The notes beneath the pieces are model-generated. The model ran no database searches. It saw only the letters and a list, made by a program, of their open reading frames with translations, and was not told the DNA's origin. Shown in pieces: positions 661 through 10,242 of a stretch of DNA of 38,337 bases. This DNA comes from Desulfovirgula sp. (lineage in GTDB: Bacteria > Bacillota > Desulfotomaculia > Desulfotomaculales > Nap2-2B), in the NCBI GenBank assembly GCA_020725585.1, contig DYES01000042.1, positions 1 to 38,337 on the forward strand, written 5' to 3'. Position numbers and translations under genes: made by a program. How positions within the stretch are numbered: the first letter of the stretch is position 1; each line of letters begins with the position of its first letter.

Positions 661-1038
661 ATGTTAAAATTCAGAGGCCACCACCTGATTTGCCTGCATT
701 TTTTCCAGGGAGAAGGCTACAACCAGGAGTTCATCCGCAATCTTCAGGATCTCACCGGCAGGGCGGAAAAGGGAGAAATAATCGAAGTGGTTGCCGGCGC
801 CGACGACGTCTGCCGGGCCTGTCCGCACCTGCGGAAAGAACGTTGCTGGCATAAAGATGATGCCGAGGCGGAAATAACAAAACTGGATCACCTGGCTTTG
901 CGTTATCTTGGCGCTTCGGCAGGAGAAAAGGTAACCTGGGACCAAATAAAAAAGAAAGTAAGCTCTGCTCCCCAAGAATGGTTTTCTGCTTTTTGTTCGG
1001 GTTGCGAGTGGGCGCCGGTTTGTAACAGGGGAAGATAA
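661..1038 (+). CDS. DUF1284 family cysteine-rich protein
   Basis: A 125-residue protein starts at ATG 661 behind the strong ribosome binding site TAAGGAG. It opens with the RGHHLICLHFFQGEGY block typical of DUF1284 and carries spaced cysteines: C11, then C51-x2-C54 and C62, then C112-x2-C115 and C121 at the C-terminus. This spacing suggests an iron-sulfur or zinc site, which is inference; the family has no established function. It lies 5 nt upstream of the SAM hydrolase gene, so the two are probably co-transcribed. It is full length for the family and has no membrane segment. Confidence 0.82.
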   Translation: MLKFRGHHLICLHFFQGEGYNQEFIRNLQDLTGRAEKGEIIEVVAGADDVCRACPHLRKERCWHKDDAEAEITKLDHLALRYLGASAGEKVTWDQIKKKVSSAPQEWFSAFCSGCEWAPVCNRGR

Positions 1039-1043
1039 ATGCT

Positions 1044-1802
1044 ATGCAAACAAAACCCATTGTTCTGCTGACCGATTTTGGCTGGAGCTCCTACGTTGGG
1101 GCGATGAAGGGGGTTATTCTTTCCCACTGCCCCCACGCCCAAATAATCGATTTGACCCACGACGTAGCCCCCCAGAACGTGCGCGAAGGAGCCTGGTTCC
1201 TTTTGGTTAATTACCTTTACTTTCCTCCCGGGAGCATCTTCCTTGCCGTCGTTGACCCCGGAGTAGGGACAAGGCGAAAAGCCTTAGCGATTAAGACAAA
1301 AGACTATTATTTCCTTGGTCCAGATAACGGCCTTCTCTCCCCAGCCGCCGCCAGGGCGGGCATCGTGGATACGGTCGAACTTACGGTGCCGCCGGAGGCC
1401 AGTCTCACCTTCCACGGCCGGGATGTTTTTGCCCCCGCTGCGGCAAAGCTGGCTGCCGGCCTGCCTTTTCGCGAACTGGGAAAGCCGGTCGTACCCGAGG
1501 TTAACTTCGCGTTTTACTTAAACGGAAGGGAAGGGGAAGTAGTCACCATCGACCGGTTCGGCAACGCAATCACCAATATTCCCCCATTGCCCGACCGCCG
1601 AAAGTATGCGGTGAGCCTCGCCCGGGGCGGAAAGAGTTATTTCCGGTCTGAATTACCCTTTTGCCCGGCGTATGCCCTTGCCCCGGAAGGGGTTTTGTTT
1701 TTGATCACTGGTTCCAGCAGAACCCTGGAGATCTCCGTAAAAAACGGATCGGCGGCCTCGCGTTTGGGTGTGGAGGTTGCCGACAGGGTGGCGATTGTAT
1801 GA
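1044..1802 (+). CDS. S-adenosylmethionine hydrolase (SAM hydroxide adenosyltransferase, DUF62)
   Basis: A 252-residue protein of the DUF62/fluorinase-chlorinase fold. Family members without a halide site hydrolyse SAM to adenosine and methionine. Visible motifs are LLTDFGWSSYVGAMKG at the N-terminus (substrate Asp11), DPGVGT at 71-76, GPDNGLLSP at 92-100, FHGRDVF at 123-129 and RFGNAITNI at 171-179 in the C-terminal domain. D71, R78 and H124 fit the Asp-Arg-His triad described for SAM hydroxide adenosyltransferases. The length is normal. It follows the DUF1284 gene after 5 nt, and the remnant of a PP2C gene begins directly at its stop codon. Halogenase activity is unlikely but cannot be excluded by eye. 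Confidence 0.88.
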   Translation: MQTKPIVLLTDFGWSSYVGAMKGVILSHCPHAQIIDLTHDVAPQNVREGAWFLLVNYLYFPPGSIFLAVVDPGVGTRRKALAIKTKDYYFLGPDNGLLSPAAARAGIVDTVELTVPPEASLTFHGRDVFAPAAAKLAAGLPFRELGKPVVPEVNFAFYLNGREGEVVTIDRFGNAITNIPPLPDRRKYAVSLARGGKSYFRSELPFCPAYALAPEGVLFLITGSSRTLEISVKNGSAASRLGVEVADRVAIV

Positions 1803-2413
1803 TGTAACGCCGCATTTCCTCACCCTGTTTTCTACGGAGGAAGAGAAGCCGGCTCAACAGCGCCGTTCCTGGCGGGAGCTTTTGCGGCAAGCTTACCTGG
1901 ACACGGATGCCCTCCTGCTTAAAAAAGGAATCGCCAGCGGCGCAGCCGCAGCCACTTTCTACATTCGGGGAGAATTTTTTTTTTTTGGCTGCAAACGTTG
2001 GGGACGTGCGCGTCGTCATCGGCACTGCTCAAGGGGCGAGGGTTTTAACGTTGGATCACAAGCCCCATCTTCCCGAAGAAAGGGCCAGAATTGAGGCCCT
2101 CGGCGGCCGGGTAATTTACTCCGACGTTCCCCGGGTGCAGGGAGAACTGGCCATCAGCCGGGCACTGGGAGATGCGCATCTTAAGCCGTACGTTACCGCC
2201 GAACCCTGGGCAGTAGAGGGAATTTTGGGCAAAGAGAACGATTACGTCGTACTGGCCTGTGACGGCGTTTGGGACGTGCTGGAACCGGAAGAGGTTCTGA
2301 CTTTAACAAGAGACGTATCCTGCCCCCAAAAAGCGGCTGAACTGATCCAGGTAAGGGCCATCGAAAAAGGAAGTACAGATAATATAACAGTTATTGTGGT
2401 CGATTTATCTTAA
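1803..2413 (+). pseudogene. PP2C-family protein phosphatase, 5'-truncated and frame-disrupted
   Basis: Two frames together give the C-terminal two thirds of a PP2C (PPM) serine/threonine phosphatase. The first frame covers 1803 to about 1975 and includes DTDALLLKKGIASGAAAATF. The second continues after a run of twelve T (1975-1986) with LAANVGDVRVVIG, then GELAISRALGD, VLACDGVWDVL and STDNITVIVV, which are the late PP2C motifs including the metal-binding DG and DN aspartates. Removing one T joins the frames exactly. The N-terminal motifs with the first metal ligands (NEDR and DGHGG) are absent, because the sequence starts at the stop of the preceding gene. No start codon or ribosome binding site was found. 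It is most likely dead. Confidence 0.8.
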
Positions 2414-2414
2414 A

Positions 2415-2783
2415 ATGGTAGCCATCTTTCTGCTGATCCTGCTCCTGAGAACACTGCTCATGCAAGCGGTGAACATAATCCTGATGCCGAAACTGGGCAC
2501 CCGAATTTGGTGCAAGTACTTCTGTCCCCAGGGGCTGCTGATCGGCCTGATCTCGCGTATTGGCAGGTTTGCTTTGGTCAAGGACGAAACCCTCTGCATA
2601 CGTTGCGGCATATGCAACCAGCACTGTTCCATGTCTATAGACATTACCAGCGGCCCTGCGGTTAACCGCAGCGGGGAATGTGTGGGGTGCGGGGTGTGCG
2701 TTGAAGTATGTCCTCAGAAAGCTCTTTCCATGACTACCGGCACCGTTTCAGGCGTTGAAAAAAGTGATAAGGTAGGGGTTTAG
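2415..2783 (+). CDS. Short 4Fe-4S dicluster polyferredoxin, NapH-like, probably N-terminally truncated
   Basis: The 122-residue product has one hydrophobic segment (about residues 2-20), then WCKYFCPQG, the CxxxCP block seen in NapH/RdxA-type membrane polyferredoxins. Two cluster motifs follow: CIRCGICNQHC and CVGCGVCVEVCP. Each supplies four cysteines for a 4Fe-4S cluster; the second has the classical proline and the first has serine in its place. Full NapH-like proteins have four or more membrane segments and are about twice as long, so this is likely a C-terminal piece. ATG 2415 is 2 nt after the PP2C remnant's stop and no convincing ribosome binding site is visible. It may be expressed as a small ferredoxin or be a pseudogene. 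Confidence 0.55.
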   Translation: MVAIFLLILLLRTLLMQAVNIILMPKLGTRIWCKYFCPQGLLIGLISRIGRFALVKDETLCIRCGICNQHCSMSIDITSGPAVNRSGECVGCGVCVEVCPQKALSMTTGTVSGVEKSDKVGV

Positions 2784-3364
2784 TCCCGCTCTTTTTAACC
2801 CCCTTTTTCCTGCAGCGGGTGATGGGTTATTCCGCCGGCCGGGCGGGGGCGATCATGACCGCCTTCCCCCTCACGGTGCTGGTGGTTGCCCCCCTGGCCG
2901 GAGCGTTATCCGATAAAATCGGTCAGCGGGGGCTAGCCTTTCTGGGGTCGTTGCTCTGTACCTTCGCCGCCTGGGCCCTGGCCGGTTTAAACCAGCAGGC
3001 CGCCCCGCCGGACGTGGCCTGGCGCTTAAGCGTGTTCGGCCTGGGCACGGGGTTCTTTCAATCCCCCAACAATAGCGCCGTGATGGGGGCGGTGCCCAAA
3101 TTCCGCCTGGGCATCGCCGGGGGAGTGCTGGCCACCACCCGCAATGTGGGCATGGTGTTGGGGATCGCCCTGGGCGGAGCGGTGCTGGCCGTCCGGCAGG
3201 CCGCCCATTGGCAAGCCGGTCGGACCGATGCTTTTTTGGCGGGATTGCAGGACGCTTACCTGGTGGCGGCGCTCCTTTCCCTGGCCGGTACGCTGGTGTG
3301 CTGGCTGGCGCGGCCCGCCCGGCAGAGTGAGGGGCAGGTTCAAAATCGCCGAATCGGGGCTTGA
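2771..3364 (+). pseudogene. MFS drug:proton antiporter (DHA2/EmrB-like), C-terminal remnant
   Basis: The open frame gives about 197 residues matching only the last five or so membrane segments of a 14-helix DHA2/EmrB-QacA transporter. It enters in mid-protein with LFLTPFFLQRVMGYSAGRAG, typical of the central-to-late DHA2 region. LAGALSDKIGQRG (a cytoplasmic-loop motif) and FFQSPNNSAVMGAVP follow, and the C-terminal tail is normal. Roughly the first 270-300 residues are missing. The in-frame sequence upstream runs into a TAA at 2768-2770 inside the ferredoxin gene. GTG 2819 or ATG 2822 could start a peptide, but no ribosome binding site is evident and such a fragment could not transport. Confidence 0.78.
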
Positions 3365-3442
3365 AAAAGACAGCGAAAAGGTAGAGGGGAGCTTGCAAAC
3401 AAGACCTGTTTTTGTGGCCGGGCGAAAACAGGCCTTTGCAAC

Positions 3443-3541
3443 GTTCACCACCAGGTGATCGTCCCCGTAACAAACGGCAAGTTAGATTTAGGGCCGTGTC
3501 AGCAGATCTACTATGCTGAGTTTGACGGAAACTTGGGTTAA
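3443..3541 (+). pseudogene. YjbQ/UPF0047-like C-terminal remnant
   Basis: The frame starting at 3443 reads [20 protein letters not shown] followed by [12 protein letters not shown] and a TAA at 3539-3541. The pattern VPVxxGxLxLGxxQxIxxxEFDG is the conserved C-terminal end of YjbQ (UPF0047, secondary thiamine-phosphate synthase) proteins, where the usual form is LGTWQ and EFDGPR. Only about the last 30 residues remain, and nothing before 3443 resembles the rest of the family. The fragment has no start. It was recognised from memory of the family pattern and not from a search. Confidence 0.5.
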
Positions 3542-3564
3542 TTTAACAGATAGGAGGTGTCTTG

Positions 3565-3804
3565 ATGAACATCCACATTAACAAAAATACCCGGTTGCAG
3601 TCGTGGGAAGGAAAAACCATCTTTAATGAATACCCGGTGCACATCCGGCCCGGCAATTTCACGGTCACTCTTTTGTTTCATGACCGGGAGGCGATCAACA
3701 ACCTGCGCGAGATCCTGACGAAAACCTTGTTTGAAATCGAACCCAGCGAATTCGAAAGTTTTTTAGATGATCCCCTGGACCCGGTGAAGAACAAAAAATT
3801 CTAA
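3565..3804 (+). CDS. Hypothetical protein, 79 residues
   Basis: ATG 3565 is preceded at ideal distance by AGGAGGT (3552-3558), one of the best ribosome binding sites in the window; an in-frame TTG at 3562 is too close to it. The product is soluble and mixed in charge. A beta-rich first half (EYPVHIRPGNFTVTLLFHD) is followed by a helical stretch REAINNLREILTKTLFE, an acidic patch and a basic end. I do not recognise a family. It stands alone between the remnant cluster and a tiny ORF at 3834 that also has a strong ribosome binding site. Confidence 0.6.
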   Translation: MNIHINKNTRLQSWEGKTIFNEYPVHIRPGNFTVTLLFHDREAINNLREILTKTLFEIEPSEFESFLDDPLDPVKNKKF

Positions 3805-3833
3805 CGGCTCTTTCCTGACCGGAGGATAGGGCA

Positions 3834-3905
3834 ATGCTGGGAAGCAACCCGAGCGCCGGCCAGATTTCTATAAAAGGGCGGAGTGGGGTGGTCATGGTCA
3901 CCTAG
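3834..3905 (+). CDS. Possible 23-residue small protein or truncated gene start
   Basis: ATG 3834 follows GGAGGATAGGGCA, a strong ribosome binding site, 29 nt after the 79-residue gene's stop. The frame encodes MLGSNPSAGQISIKGRSGVV and four more residues before TAG. It could be a real small protein translated with the upstream gene, or the surviving 5' end of a deleted gene. Nothing recognisable follows. Evidence is limited to the ribosome binding site and position. Confidence 0.3.
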   Translation: MLGSNPSAGQISIKGRSGVVMVT

Positions 3906-4033
3906 CTTCTGTTTTTAAATTCCCTTTGGAGAAACTAAAGCGATAAATCCCAGGGGTTTGGGGACAGCGTCCACGGTTGCAGGCCGAAAGCGGGCGGGAA
4001 CGGCGAGAACATTTATAAAGGGTGCGGCTAAAT

Positions 4034-5827: not shown

Positions 5828-6265
5828 ATGTTTATGGGCGAATATCAACATACTATTGACAGCAAAGGCAGGCTGTTTATCCCCGCCCGCTTTCGGGAAG
5901 GCTTGGGAGAAAAGTTTGTTTTGACCAAAGGCCTGGACGGTTGTTTGTTCGCCTACCCCCCCCAGGAATGGCTAAGCCTGGAGAATAAAATGCGTGCTTT
6001 GCCCTTTACCAGGTCTGACGTCCGGGCCTTTGTTCGTTTCTTTTTTGCCGGTGCCTGCGAGTGCGAGGTGGACAGGCAGGGCAGGATCTTGATTCCAGCC
6101 AACCTGCGCAAACACGCGGCCCTGGATAAAGAGGTGGTCATTATCGGCGTTTCCAGCAGGGTGGAGATCTGGGCGAAGGAACAGTGGGAAAAATATAACG
6201 AGGAAGCTGCGGCTTCGGTGGAGCAGATCGCGGAAAAAATAGTGGATTTTGACCTGGGGATTTAA
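5828..6265 (+). CDS. mraZ: Transcriptional regulator MraZ
   Basis: A 145-residue MraZ with two AbrB-like (SpoVT/AbrB) DNA-binding repeats: [20 protein letters not shown] (about residues 4-23) and [20 protein letters not shown] (about 78-97). The DxKGR/DxQGR turns are the family signature. It binds DNA as a ring-shaped oligomer and regulates the dcw operon. ATG 5828 follows GGGGGAGGG; the in-frame GTG at 5798 lies within the operator repeats and is not credible. It is the first gene of the cluster. Confidence 0.95.
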
Positions 6266-6393
6266 TTTTTCAGTCCGGCCGGGAAAATCGCCGGCGGGCG
6301 CCGAAAGAAGGCTTAATCAAGGTTGACGGTTAGAGGTTAATGGGGCTATTGCCATTATAATGTTCTTAAAAACGTTTGCAGCGGTGGTGCCTT

Positions 6394-7365
6394 TTGGAAG
6401 ACCAGGAGTACACTCGCCAGTATGGCCACCGGCCGGTGATGCTCGACGAGGTATTGCAGGCGCTCAACTTAAAGCCCGGCGGTGTTTACGTGGATTGCAC
6501 CGTAGGCGGCGGCGGCCATGGCCGGGAAATCCTGAGGTTAACGGCTCCTGACGGCGTTCTCATCGGGCTGGACAGAGATCCCTTTGCGCTGCGGCAGGCC
6601 GCCGCTTCCCTGGCCGAGTACGGCACGCGGGCCATGCTGTTGAACGAAAATTTCCTCAATTTACCCCGCGTTTTAGAAACCCTTCGCATCTGCGCGGTAG
6701 ACGGTTTGCTTTACGACCTGGGGGTAAGCTCGTTCCAGCTGGACGACCCGCAGCGCGGCTTCAGTTATCAGGCGGACGGCCCGCTGGACATGCGGATGGA
6801 CCCGGCCGGCCCGGTGAGTGCAAAAGACCTGGTGAACGAGTTGTCCGCGGAGGAGCTGGCGGATATTTTCTGGCGGTACGGGGAAGAGCGTTGGGCAAAG
6901 CGCATCGCCACCTTTATCGCGGCCGAAAGGGAGCGCCGCCACATCGAAACCACCGGGCAGCTGGCGGAAATCATCAAAAAAGCCATCCCGGCGCGCGCCC
7001 GCAGGAGCGGCCCGCACCCCGCGCGGCGCTGCTTTCAGGCTTTGCGCATTGCCGTGAACCGGGAGCTGGACGCTTTGGCCAGATCCTTAAAAGAGGCAGT
7101 TCCTTTTTTAAAACTAGGGGGGCGAATATGTGTCCTTTCTTTTCACTCTCTGGAAGACCGCCTGGTGAAAGAAACTTTTCGAGAAATGGCCGTTGGTTGC
7201 AAGTGCCCGCCCGGTCTGCCCGCGTGCGTTTGCGGCCAGGGCGGCAGCCTGCGCATCATCACCAGGCGCCCCCTGGTACCCTCGCCGGAGGAGATTGCGC
7301 GCAACCCCCGCGCACGCAGCGCCAGGTTGCGCGTTGCCGAGAAGGTTGGATTAACTCAGGTTTAA
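6394..7365 (+). CDS. rsmH: 16S rRNA (cytosine-1402-N4)-methyltransferase RsmH
   Basis: RsmH (MraW) methylates N4 of C1402 in the 16S rRNA P-site using SAM. The [10 protein letters not shown] block, the SAM-binding loop [36 protein letters not shown] with DMRMDP, RAFQALRI-like [15 protein letters not shown] and [11 protein letters not shown] are all present in order. Length is about 323 residues, normal. I favour the TTG at 6394 ([14 protein letters not shown]) with GGTGG upstream; TTG 6376 in the same frame would add six residues. It follows mraZ in standard dcw order. Confidence 0.93.
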
Positions 7366-7415
7366 CTTGACTTGGTTGGTGGCTTAGTTCTAAAGACGGG
7401 AGAAGGTGAATAACT

Positions 7416-7925
7416 TTGGTAGTAGCACAGGAACAACCTTATTATTCCAGCCTGCCCAAAAAAAGCCGTCGGACGCGCAAAAGAACCAGGGTTCATTATT
7501 TTCCCCGGCGTGAACGCCTGGTTCTCACCGGTATGGTGCTGCTCGTTTTTTGCGCGGGAATACTCGTCGTTTTCTTCTACGCGCAGGTTTTGGCCGCCGG
7601 GTACCAGCTCAACCAGGTAAAAAAACAGCTCAACGATTTAAATATCGAGACAAAAGCCCTGACGGAAAACGTTGCCCGGCTTTCTTCCCTAGAAAGGGTG
7701 GAGAAGGTAGCGACCACCAGGCTCGGCATGGTCAAGCCGGATACCAGCCAGATGATTCTGGTGAAGGTGGACCTGCCGGCTGCGGATTCAGGCGGCGGCG
7801 CGCGTTTAGAAGAGCGGTCCGGACCGCCGCCGGAAGCGGTGGCCGCCGCACAAGAAAAAAATAACTGGATAATCCAGGCTTTGGTGCGTCTGGTGGCAGG
7901 CCGGGGGGACCCGGGGCCAGGCTAA
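7416..7925 (+). CDS. ftsL: Cell division protein FtsL-like
   Basis: A 169-residue bitopic protein has the FtsL layout: a basic cytoplasmic N-terminus (KKSRRTRKRTR), one membrane segment (about residues 37-58), and a coiled-coil stretch QLNQVKKQLNDLNIETKALT with RLSSLERVEKVATTRLGM, the septum-formation-initiator pattern. FtsL works with FtsQ/DivIB and DivIC to recruit and activate septal synthesis. The Ala/Gly/Pro-rich tail after about residue 120 is longer than in many FtsL proteins. Start is TTG 7416 behind GAGAAGGTG. Position between rsmH and the PBP gene supports the call. Confidence 0.82.
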   Translation: MVVAQEQPYYSSLPKKSRRTRKRTRVHYFPRRERLVLTGMVLLVFCAGILVVFFYAQVLAAGYQLNQVKKQLNDLNIETKALTENVARLSSLERVEKVATTRLGMVKPDTSQMILVKVDLPAADSGGGARLEERSGPPPEAVAAAQEKNNWIIQALVRLVAGRGDPGPG

Positions 7926-7927
7926 AT

Positions 7928-7951
7928 CGGTCGTCGGCCGTCGGTCGTCAG
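7928..7951 (+). repeat. Short direct repeats of CGGTCGTC(A/G)G
   Basis: CGGTCGTCGG (7928-7937) is repeated as CGGTCGTCAG (7942-7951), followed by further GTC-rich sequence, in the ftsL-PBP intergenic space. The function is unknown. It may be a low-complexity dispersed intergenic repeat. Confidence 0.4.
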
Positions 7952-8025
7952 ACGTCAGAATGAAAACGTTAGGCGCCGGAAATTAAAGAAGGGACGGCTG
8001 GCGACAGACGAGGGAGGTCCTTTTT

Positions 8026-10242
8026 TTGCCGCTGACGCTTACCGTTATCCGCAAAAGACTGGCCTTCATGCTCATTTTCGCCAGCCTGGCATTAATCGCC
8101 TTAACCGGCCGGGTGGCCTGGATCCAGTTTGTGCGGGGCGAGGAGCTCCAAAAAAAAGCTTTGGAAATCCGGACGCGCGACATTCCCGTAGAAGCCAGGC
8201 GGGGAAACATCTACGACCGCAACGGCAAAGAGCTGGTTGCCAACGCCAGCGTCGATTCTCTTTACACCATCCCGCTTTTGGTCAAGGACCCCCAAAATAC
8301 TGCGAAAAGGCTCTCCTCAATCCTGGACGTGGAAGAAGAGCGCCTTTTGAAAATCCTGACCCGGAAATCGTGTTTCGAGTGGCTGGCCCGCAAGCTGGAT
8401 GCCCAGACCGCGCAAAAGATCAAGGCTTTAGAGCTGCCCGGCATTTTTTTCGTGGAGGAAAACCGCCGGTATTATCCTTTTCAGACGCTCGCCCCGCACC
8501 TGTTGGGGTTTACCGGCATTGACAACCAGGGCTTAACGGGCATTGAAAAGACTTTTGAGAAGGACTTAAAAGGCGTTCCCGGACGCATCATTATTGAACA
8601 GGACGCCACCGGGCAGGATATTCCCGAGCCGATCCACCGGTATATCTCTCCGCGCCAGGGGCGCCACCTGTATTTGACCGTTGACGAAACCATCCAGCAT
8701 TTCGTGGAGAGGGAATTGGATAAGATCGTGGCCAGGTACCAGCCAAAACTGGCGGTGATTATCCTGATGGACCCGCGCACCGGGGAAATCCTGGCCATGG
8801 GCAGCCGGCCCACCTTTAACTCGAACGACTGGATGAACGCCCCCAGGGAAACCTGGGACAGGAATCCGGCGATCTGGTACAACTACGAACCTGGCTCCAC
8901 CTTTAAGATCATCACCATGGCGGCCGGGCTGGCCGAAGGGGCGGTAAAGCCAGAAGACACCTTTTTTGATCCGGGTTACATTAAAGTGGCGGACCGTTAC
9001 ATCCGCTGCTGGTATGACGGCGGGCACGGCAGTCAAACCTTTGCGGAAGTGGTGATGCATTCCTGCAACCCCGGTTTTGTGGAAGTGGGTTTAAGATTAG
9101 GGGTGCAGAAATTTTATCATTACGTCAAGGCCTTTGGTTTTGGCGAGGTGACGGGGATCGACCTGCCCGGTGAAGCCGCGGGCATTCTAATTCCGGAAAA
9201 AAAGGCCACGAACCTGAATATCGCCACCATGTCCATCGGCCAGTCCATTGCCGTTACGCCCATTCAGCTGCTGACGGCGGTGGGGGCGGTGGCCAACGGG
9301 GGCACCCTCTTGCGGCCCCAGATCGTGAGGGAGATCCGGGACAGTTCCGGGAGCGTGGTGAAACGGTTTCAACCCGAGCCGGTGCGCCGTGTCCTCACCC
9401 CGGAAGCGGCCCGCCAGGTGGGCAGCCTGCTGGAAAACGTGATCCTCAAAGGGACGGGCCGCAACGCCTTCATTGACGGGTACCGGGTCGCGGGTAAGAC
9501 AGGCACGGCGCAGGTGGTGGGAGAAGGCGGCGGTTATGTGACGGGGCGGTATGTGGCTTCTTTTGTGGGCTATGCGCCGGTTGAAGACCCGCGCGTGGCG
9601 GCGCTGGTCATGGTGGCCGAGCCGCAGGGAGGCATTTATTACGGCTCGCAGGTGGCCGCGCCCGTTTTCCAGGCCGTTGTGCGCGATGCGCTGCATTATC
9701 TGAAGGCGCCCAAAACGCCCGGCCTGGAAAAGCCGAAGGATCCCTTTGTTTACGAGGAGCCGAAATTTAAAGTGAAGGTGCCCAACGTCGTCAATTACCC
9801 TGTCAACGAGGCGATTTCCCGGCTCGTTGGCGCGGGTTTGACCTACCGGACGCAGGGCGAAGGCCCAGAAGGCGGAATTGTTTACGGACAAACCCCCGGA
9901 CCCGGGGCGGAGGTGTGGAGCGGTACGGCCGTGATCTTAAATCTGGAGCCCCCACGGATCCGGGGCGTCGGCGAGGTAACCGTGCCCAACCTCCAAGGCC
10001 TGACCGTTGTTGAAGTTGCAGATTTGCTCAAAAAACTGGACCTGCACCTGGAATTGAGCGGAACCGGCCTGGCCGCCGAACAGGACCCGCCTCCCGGGCA
10101 CAGAGTCACGCGCCGGAGCACCGTGAAGGTCTGGTTCCGGCCGCCCGGCCAGGCTTCCCAGGGGCCGCCCGCGCCCGCTGATCCCGAGGCCCCGCCCGCC
10201 TGGGGAGAGCCCCGCCGGGGCGACTTTGTGGAAAGGCCGTAG
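8026..10242 (+). CDS. spoVD: PASTA-domain class B penicillin-binding protein (SpoVD/FtsI type)
   Basis: A 738-residue class B PBP: short cytoplasmic tail, one membrane segment (about residues 12-32), the N-terminal dimerisation domain with EARRGNIYDRNGKEL, then the transpeptidase domain. Catalytic motifs are complete: STFK at 291-294, SCN at 346-348 and KTGT at 491-494. Two PASTA repeats follow (about 583-647 VPNVVNYPVNEAI and 651-713 VPNLQGLTVVEVA), and the tail is proline-rich. It is the only PBP in this cluster, so it may serve vegetative septation (FtsI role), spore cortex synthesis (SpoVD role) or both. Start is TTG 8026 after GGGAGGT. Confidence 0.92.
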   Translation: MPLTLTVIRKRLAFMLIFASLALIALTGRVAWIQFVRGEELQKKALEIRTRDIPVEARRGNIYDRNGKELVANASVDSLYTIPLLVKDPQNTAKRLSSILDVEEERLLKILTRKSCFEWLARKLDAQTAQKIKALELPGIFFVEENRRYYPFQTLAPHLLGFTGIDNQGLTGIEKTFEKDLKGVPGRIIIEQDATGQDIPEPIHRYISPRQGRHLYLTVDETIQHFVERELDKIVARYQPKLAVIILMDPRTGEILAMGSRPTFNSNDWMNAPRETWDRNPAIWYNYEPGSTFKIITMAAGLAEGAVKPEDTFFDPGYIKVADRYIRCWYDGGHGSQTFAEVVMHSCNPGFVEVGLRLGVQKFYHYVKAFGFGEVTGIDLPGEAAGILIPEKKATNLNIATMSIGQSIAVTPIQLLTAVGAVANGGTLLRPQIVREIRDSSGSVVKRFQPEPVRRVLTPEAARQVGSLLENVILKGTGRNAFIDGYRVAGKTGTAQVVGEGGGYVTGRYVASFVGYAPVEDPRVAALVMVAEPQGGIYYGSQVAAPVFQAVVRDALHYLKAPKTPGLEKPKDPFVYEEPKFKVKVPNVVNYPVNEAISRLVGAGLTYRTQGEGPEGGIVYGQTPGPGAEVWSGTAVILNLEPPRIRGVGEVTVPNLQGLTVVEVADLLKKLDLHLELSGTGLAAEQDPPPGHRVTRRSTVKVWFRPPGQASQGPPAPADPEAPPAWGEPRRGDFVERP

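Follow-up and report, generated by a model that had tools for sequence, protein, structure and literature searches.

A tract of four broken genes in a Desulfovirgula contig is probably the product of ordinary, multi-event gene decay

The window analysed here, 38,337 nucleotides long, is the whole of one contig (C35; DYES01000042.1) of a Desulfovirgula genome, G000, whose assembly is incomplete (2.37 Mb in 92 contigs, 83% complete). Between ~1803 and 3530, pieces of a PP2C phosphatase, a polyferredoxin, an MFS transporter and a YjbQ protein are arranged head to tail along the + strand within 1.7 kb, and none of the four is full length, which confirms the arrangement reported in a preliminary description of this DNA. 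For comparison we used intact homologues in as many as 60 relatives as well as Pfam and NCBIfam; all four pieces proved shorter than the intact homologues or the family profiles. The matches are not chance similarities (Pfam E values of 3e-42 for PP2C, 4e-15 for MFS and 1e-7 for YjbQ; E ~1e-150 for the polyferredoxin against a sister genome). Intact homologues of three of the genes were found in relatives and fixed the cut points of their pieces; for PP2C and YjbQ the cut points were set by profiles.

The tract is placed between a SAM hydroxide adenosyltransferase gene (DUF62; also called the SAM-hydrolase gene below) and the mraZ/division cluster. As the preliminary description had held for the flanks, the neighbours on the left are intact, and both are complete by Pfam: a DUF1284 gene of 125 aa (661..1038, + strand; PF06935 positions 1-102 of 102) and the SAM hydroxide adenosyltransferase gene of 252 aa (1044..1802, + strand; PF01887 positions 1-145 of 145 and PF20257 positions 1-83 of 84). 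On the right follows an 80-aa ORF of no known family, with AGGAGG upstream (3562..3804, + strand). The window's SAM hydroxide adenosyltransferase shares 69-72% amino acid identity with the proteins of two relatives, G002 and G005. In those genomes (G002:C32 and G005:C25; loci L041 and L042) its gene lies between xseA and lspA, gene names assigned by eye, and not near DUF1284 or mraZ, suggesting that the gene moved in the window's lineage.

The PP2C remnant (1803..2413, + strand) starts directly after the stop codon of the SAM-hydrolase gene. From 1801 to a run of 12 T residues (1975-1986) the piece stays in a single reading frame, and from there to 2413 it is open in the next one. Only when the two are read across the shift does the piece match PF00481 from position 71 to 255 of 255, with approximately the first 70 profile positions gone; the 5′ loss described earlier for this gene is thus borne out. 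A run of 11 T would bring the gene back in frame; the additional T may be a genuine mutation, reflect slippage at this site or stem from an error in sequencing. The phosphatase is of the eukaryote type: in a PDB search the best solved chains are those of plant enzymes (E 1e-27), whereas 399 genomes of the phylum yield only weak matches (best E 5e-9, 35% identity), and for these reasons it looks foreign. No close relative of the piece was found in the 60 relatives, and a scan of genome contigs with the piece, from which the window's own record was possibly excluded, gave no match.

For the polyferredoxin, an intact NapH-like gene of 310 aa is present in a genome of the same genus, G001 (L003 2408..1476; contig C76), and is ~96% identical to the window copy. 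Two stretches of this gene survive in the window: a 33-bp sliver from near the 5′ end, approximately codons 4-15 (2405..2437, + strand; 100% identical to L003 2397..2365), and the C-terminal coding part with its Fer4 domains (2436..2764, + strand; 329 bp, 95.7% identical to G001:C76). Their matches to L003 overlap at the junction (2436..2437, + strand) in a 2-bp microhomology (AT) with both sides, and the segment missing between them is 537 bp, exactly 179 codons, so that the deletion is in frame. The original start codon, the first codons and the ribosome-binding site are gone, with the end of PP2C in their place, and on the 3′ side the last 8 codons are gone; a short filler of 26 bases, similar to neither intact gene, separates the polyferredoxin and MFS pieces (2765..2790, + strand). 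Compared with the G001 gene, the piece has a deletion in its interior and trimmed ends, and so differs from a plain 3′ fragment. The intact G001 protein aligns with TIGR02163 (NapH/MauN) over most of its length (E 2e-19), at a score (69.9 bits) far under the curated cut-off of 213.05.

The in-frame deletion leaves an open ORF with ferredoxin domains, and dN/dS against the G001 gene is 0.31. Both observations would suit a working new gene, born by truncation of the 310-aa protein and encoding a 122-aa protein anchored by a single membrane helix and carrying two 4Fe-4S motifs. We regard this as very improbable: the ribosome-binding site and start codon have been swapped for the end of PP2C, the C-terminus is cut and runs into the filler, the neighbours on either side are broken, 7 of the 14 differences from G001 alter the protein (the other 7 do not), and a deletion at random has a one-in-three chance of being in frame.

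The MFS remnant (2791..3364, + strand) comes from a transporter of the DHA2/EmrB type and shows 78-81% DNA identity to intact genes in three relatives (G042, G032 and G005). Similarity to the intact transporters, which are 461-494 aa long, begins abruptly at 2792 and reaches or nears their natural end, and only the C-terminal ~190 of 494 residues are kept. At 67%, its GC content exceeds that of the contig's remainder (56%). The dN/dS of the remnant (0.16-0.18) is about that of intact gene pairs (0.13-0.17), which suggests that the truncation is recent on that scale. A stable hairpin (3401-3436), whose 12-nt arms are 92% complementary, lies beyond the MFS end and ahead of the YjbQ piece; it is possibly a leftover terminator.

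The last piece is an internal fragment of ~89 bp from a YjbQ/UPF0047 gene (3441..3530, + strand; PF01894 positions 78-107 of 117). Its DNA is 89% similar to a gene in G007 (C39) and 83% similar to one in G003 (C179), and on both sides this similarity stops inside the gene. The same paralogue is damaged in other members of the family, being 5′-shortened in G007, truncated and frameshifted in G003 and split in G006; a separate intact YjbQ is encoded elsewhere in G000, on contig C46. We also considered whether the piece is a conserved unit common to G003:C179 and rejected this, because the endpoints differ and the G003 remnant is longer, separately frameshifted and situated between other genes. 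The preliminary description had stated that only 3′ parts are kept, each without its N-terminal part. This applies to the MFS piece, which has lost its 5′ part and retains its natural 3′ end, but not to the polyferredoxin, where near-5′ sequence survives beside an internal deletion and a cut end, nor to YjbQ, which has lost both ends; for these same two genes an account that invokes a separate 5′ loss in each of the four is wrong.

To produce the tract takes one frameshift and no fewer than six breakpoints, the latter at 1802/3, ~2405, 2436/7, 2764, ~2790, within 3365-3440 and at 3530. A single deletion is ruled out by this number, which supports the earlier view that one deletion is insufficient and that serial deletions are likely. 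Neither a repeat family marking the joins nor an attC-like or other repeated site in the tract was found. Sharing of 6-8-mers among the junction neighbourhoods is no higher than among places picked at random in the window (P 0.43-0.64 with overlapping windows merged); a shared-site signal in this test (P=0.03) came from two overlapping junction windows and was discarded. With the exception of 2436/7, only one parent sequence is known for most joins, so that microhomology at them is mostly not scorable.

The preliminary description had also proposed a recombination hotspot at which new 3′ ends are joined again and again; such a place, integron-like or site-specific, would capture or join the 3′ ends of genes. 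The presence of several unrelated genes in one orientation within 1.7 kb could be read in this way, as could the stable hairpin between the MFS and YjbQ pieces. The joins, which have no common motif or repeat, speak against it, as does the damage, which has no common polarity: the MFS piece provides the only clean 3′ end, the polyferredoxin is internally deleted and the YjbQ piece is internal. Moreover, other broken genes exist elsewhere in the genome, some of them with 5′ parts, and when the same interval was compared in G001, the DNA next to mraZ had different content, without remnants of the tract genes. The proposal is therefore unsupported, and we judge it extremely improbable.

Other genes that appear broken were sampled in ~320 kb of G000 outside the window, a part of the genome, and only individually inspected pieces were used. 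On contig C60 (L075 ~6000-9200) a HEPN piece abuts a P-loop ATPase-like piece, both with their 5′ parts, and an integrase N-terminal domain stands alone there; the ATPase-like piece was recognised by eye and has no match in Pfam. Further genes that appear broken are represented by a lone SPOB_a domain (C2) and an MFS piece (C55). Thus, the position of the tract is probably not special. In G001, it is the intact left-hand neighbours of the tract that are reduced to scraps: the SAM-hydrolase orthologue to 74 bp (97% identity; L037 241-314), beside a transposase-like ORF that is broken and was identified by eye, and the DUF1284 orthologue to 52 bp (90%; L040 4714-4765). These scraps are on two different contigs, whereas the two genes are adjacent in the window; a second DUF1284 gene, 75% similar, is present in G001:C119. 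The division-cluster genes of G000 and G001 are ~75-86% identical, and set against this value the pieces that match at 96-97% point to recent transfer between lineages, with the qualification that such searches favour short conserved stretches. Together these cases suggest that accessory genes in the genus can be cut to scraps of tens of bases, which may constitute a natural record of illegitimate joins.

In a genome that is fragmented and 83% complete, several unrelated pieces packed very close might also arise from an assembly or amplification chimera, in which unrelated reads have been joined. Against this, the sequence shared at the joins is at most ~10 bp, far under normal assembler overlaps, no second copy of any piece was found in G000 at the DNA level, one orientation is kept throughout, and the same kind of scraps occurs at other places in the sister genome. 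We consider a chimera unlikely.

Multi-event decay of partly foreign genes, in other words ordinary gene decay, very probably explains the tract. It would be a mosaic of non-functional remnants from four or more unrelated genes, some of them at least acquired by horizontal transfer; mixed origins are suggested by a PP2C piece without a close relative in the 60 relatives and by the raised GC content of the MFS piece. Several independent illegitimate deletions and joins, requiring little or no homology, plus one homopolymer frameshift would then have whittled the genes down, each surviving piece being what escaped deletion, so that 5′ ends, 3′ ends and gene interiors would all be affected by loss. 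Disabling changes affect all four: the PP2C frame is shifted, the polyferredoxin has lost its start and 179 codons, ~60% of the MFS gene is gone and YjbQ keeps 30 of 117 profile positions. We infer that the pieces are inactive and that the events were sequential. Two observations go against decay, namely that the MFS and polyferredoxin frames are still open and that their dN/dS values are not raised to neutrality; these genes may either have been broken recently or still be in use.

The joins would have been made by end joining, using Ku and a LigD-type ligase, or by replication slippage. Ku and an adjacent LigD-type ligase are encoded in G000 (C84, 1456-2001 and 222-1124, respectively; the ligase assigned by reading the sequence and not by profile search), so that end joining appears to be available, and Ku is encoded in several, not all, of the relatives. 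The microhomology at 2436/7 and the filler at 2765-2790 fit end joining, and replication slippage fits them too; the attribution to end joining specifically is therefore tentative, with the odds somewhat against it. Because the apparent polarity of the remnants is absent on correction, a special joining mechanism is unneeded.

Beside the tract lies a feature that is probably a better lead than the gene remnants themselves. Positions 3806..3970 (+ strand) are occupied by a structured RNA with strong covariation that is related to those found at IS-element ends; the copy is complete, and model R1 scores it at 71.4 bits over 3811-3867. In the 57-base core of the family (3811-3867 in the window), 95.5% of cells are paired, 9 pairs are changed on both sides and 26 cells are compensatory, and none of 500 shuffles scored as high on any measure. 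When the alignment is extended to ~150 bases, another covarying hairpin appears, as does a closing stem of GCU/AGC, and 18 of 35 predicted pairs have compensatory changes; the RNA then measures ~150-165 nt, its two hairpins being closed by GCU/AGC. The G-U pairs point to + as the strand of the RNA. Among 300 genomes sampled from the phylum, 53 carry the RNA, with as many as 8 copies apiece (for example at L048 6209-6372 and L101 3984-4150, and in loci L107-L166). An IS256-type transposase gene, whole or broken, is close to it in 30 of 60 loci, in G051 it lies within a ~1.5-kb repeated element and points towards the transposase gene, and in three loci it follows IS481/ExeA-type genes; the remaining loci of the 60 have none of the few transposases tested. 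The window copy stands alone, without a transposase gene beside it. A search of the right flank and the RNA against Rfam 15 gave no match, and the literature offered nothing decisive on either the tract or the RNA.

Set beside known systems, the polyferredoxin differs from the NapH/MauN family in that the window copy additionally lacks 179 internal codons. With integron and other site-specific gene-capture arrays the tract shares several unrelated genes in one orientation, but it has no attC-like or repeated site, and its genes are broken where those of the arrays are whole cassettes. Its likeness to Ku/LigD end joining, or to slippage at microhomology, consists of the 2-bp microhomology at the 537-bp deletion, the 26-bp filler and the encoded Ku and ligase, whose part in making the tract is putative. 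A close parallel is bacterial pseudogene decay in accessory regions, with its deletional bias, which the tract resembles in its row of broken genes, short survivors, mixed origins, intact flanks and lack of selection for a common endpoint. Nothing essential separates the two, except that the joins of the tract are unusually dense (at least six in 1.7 kb) and its scraps very short.
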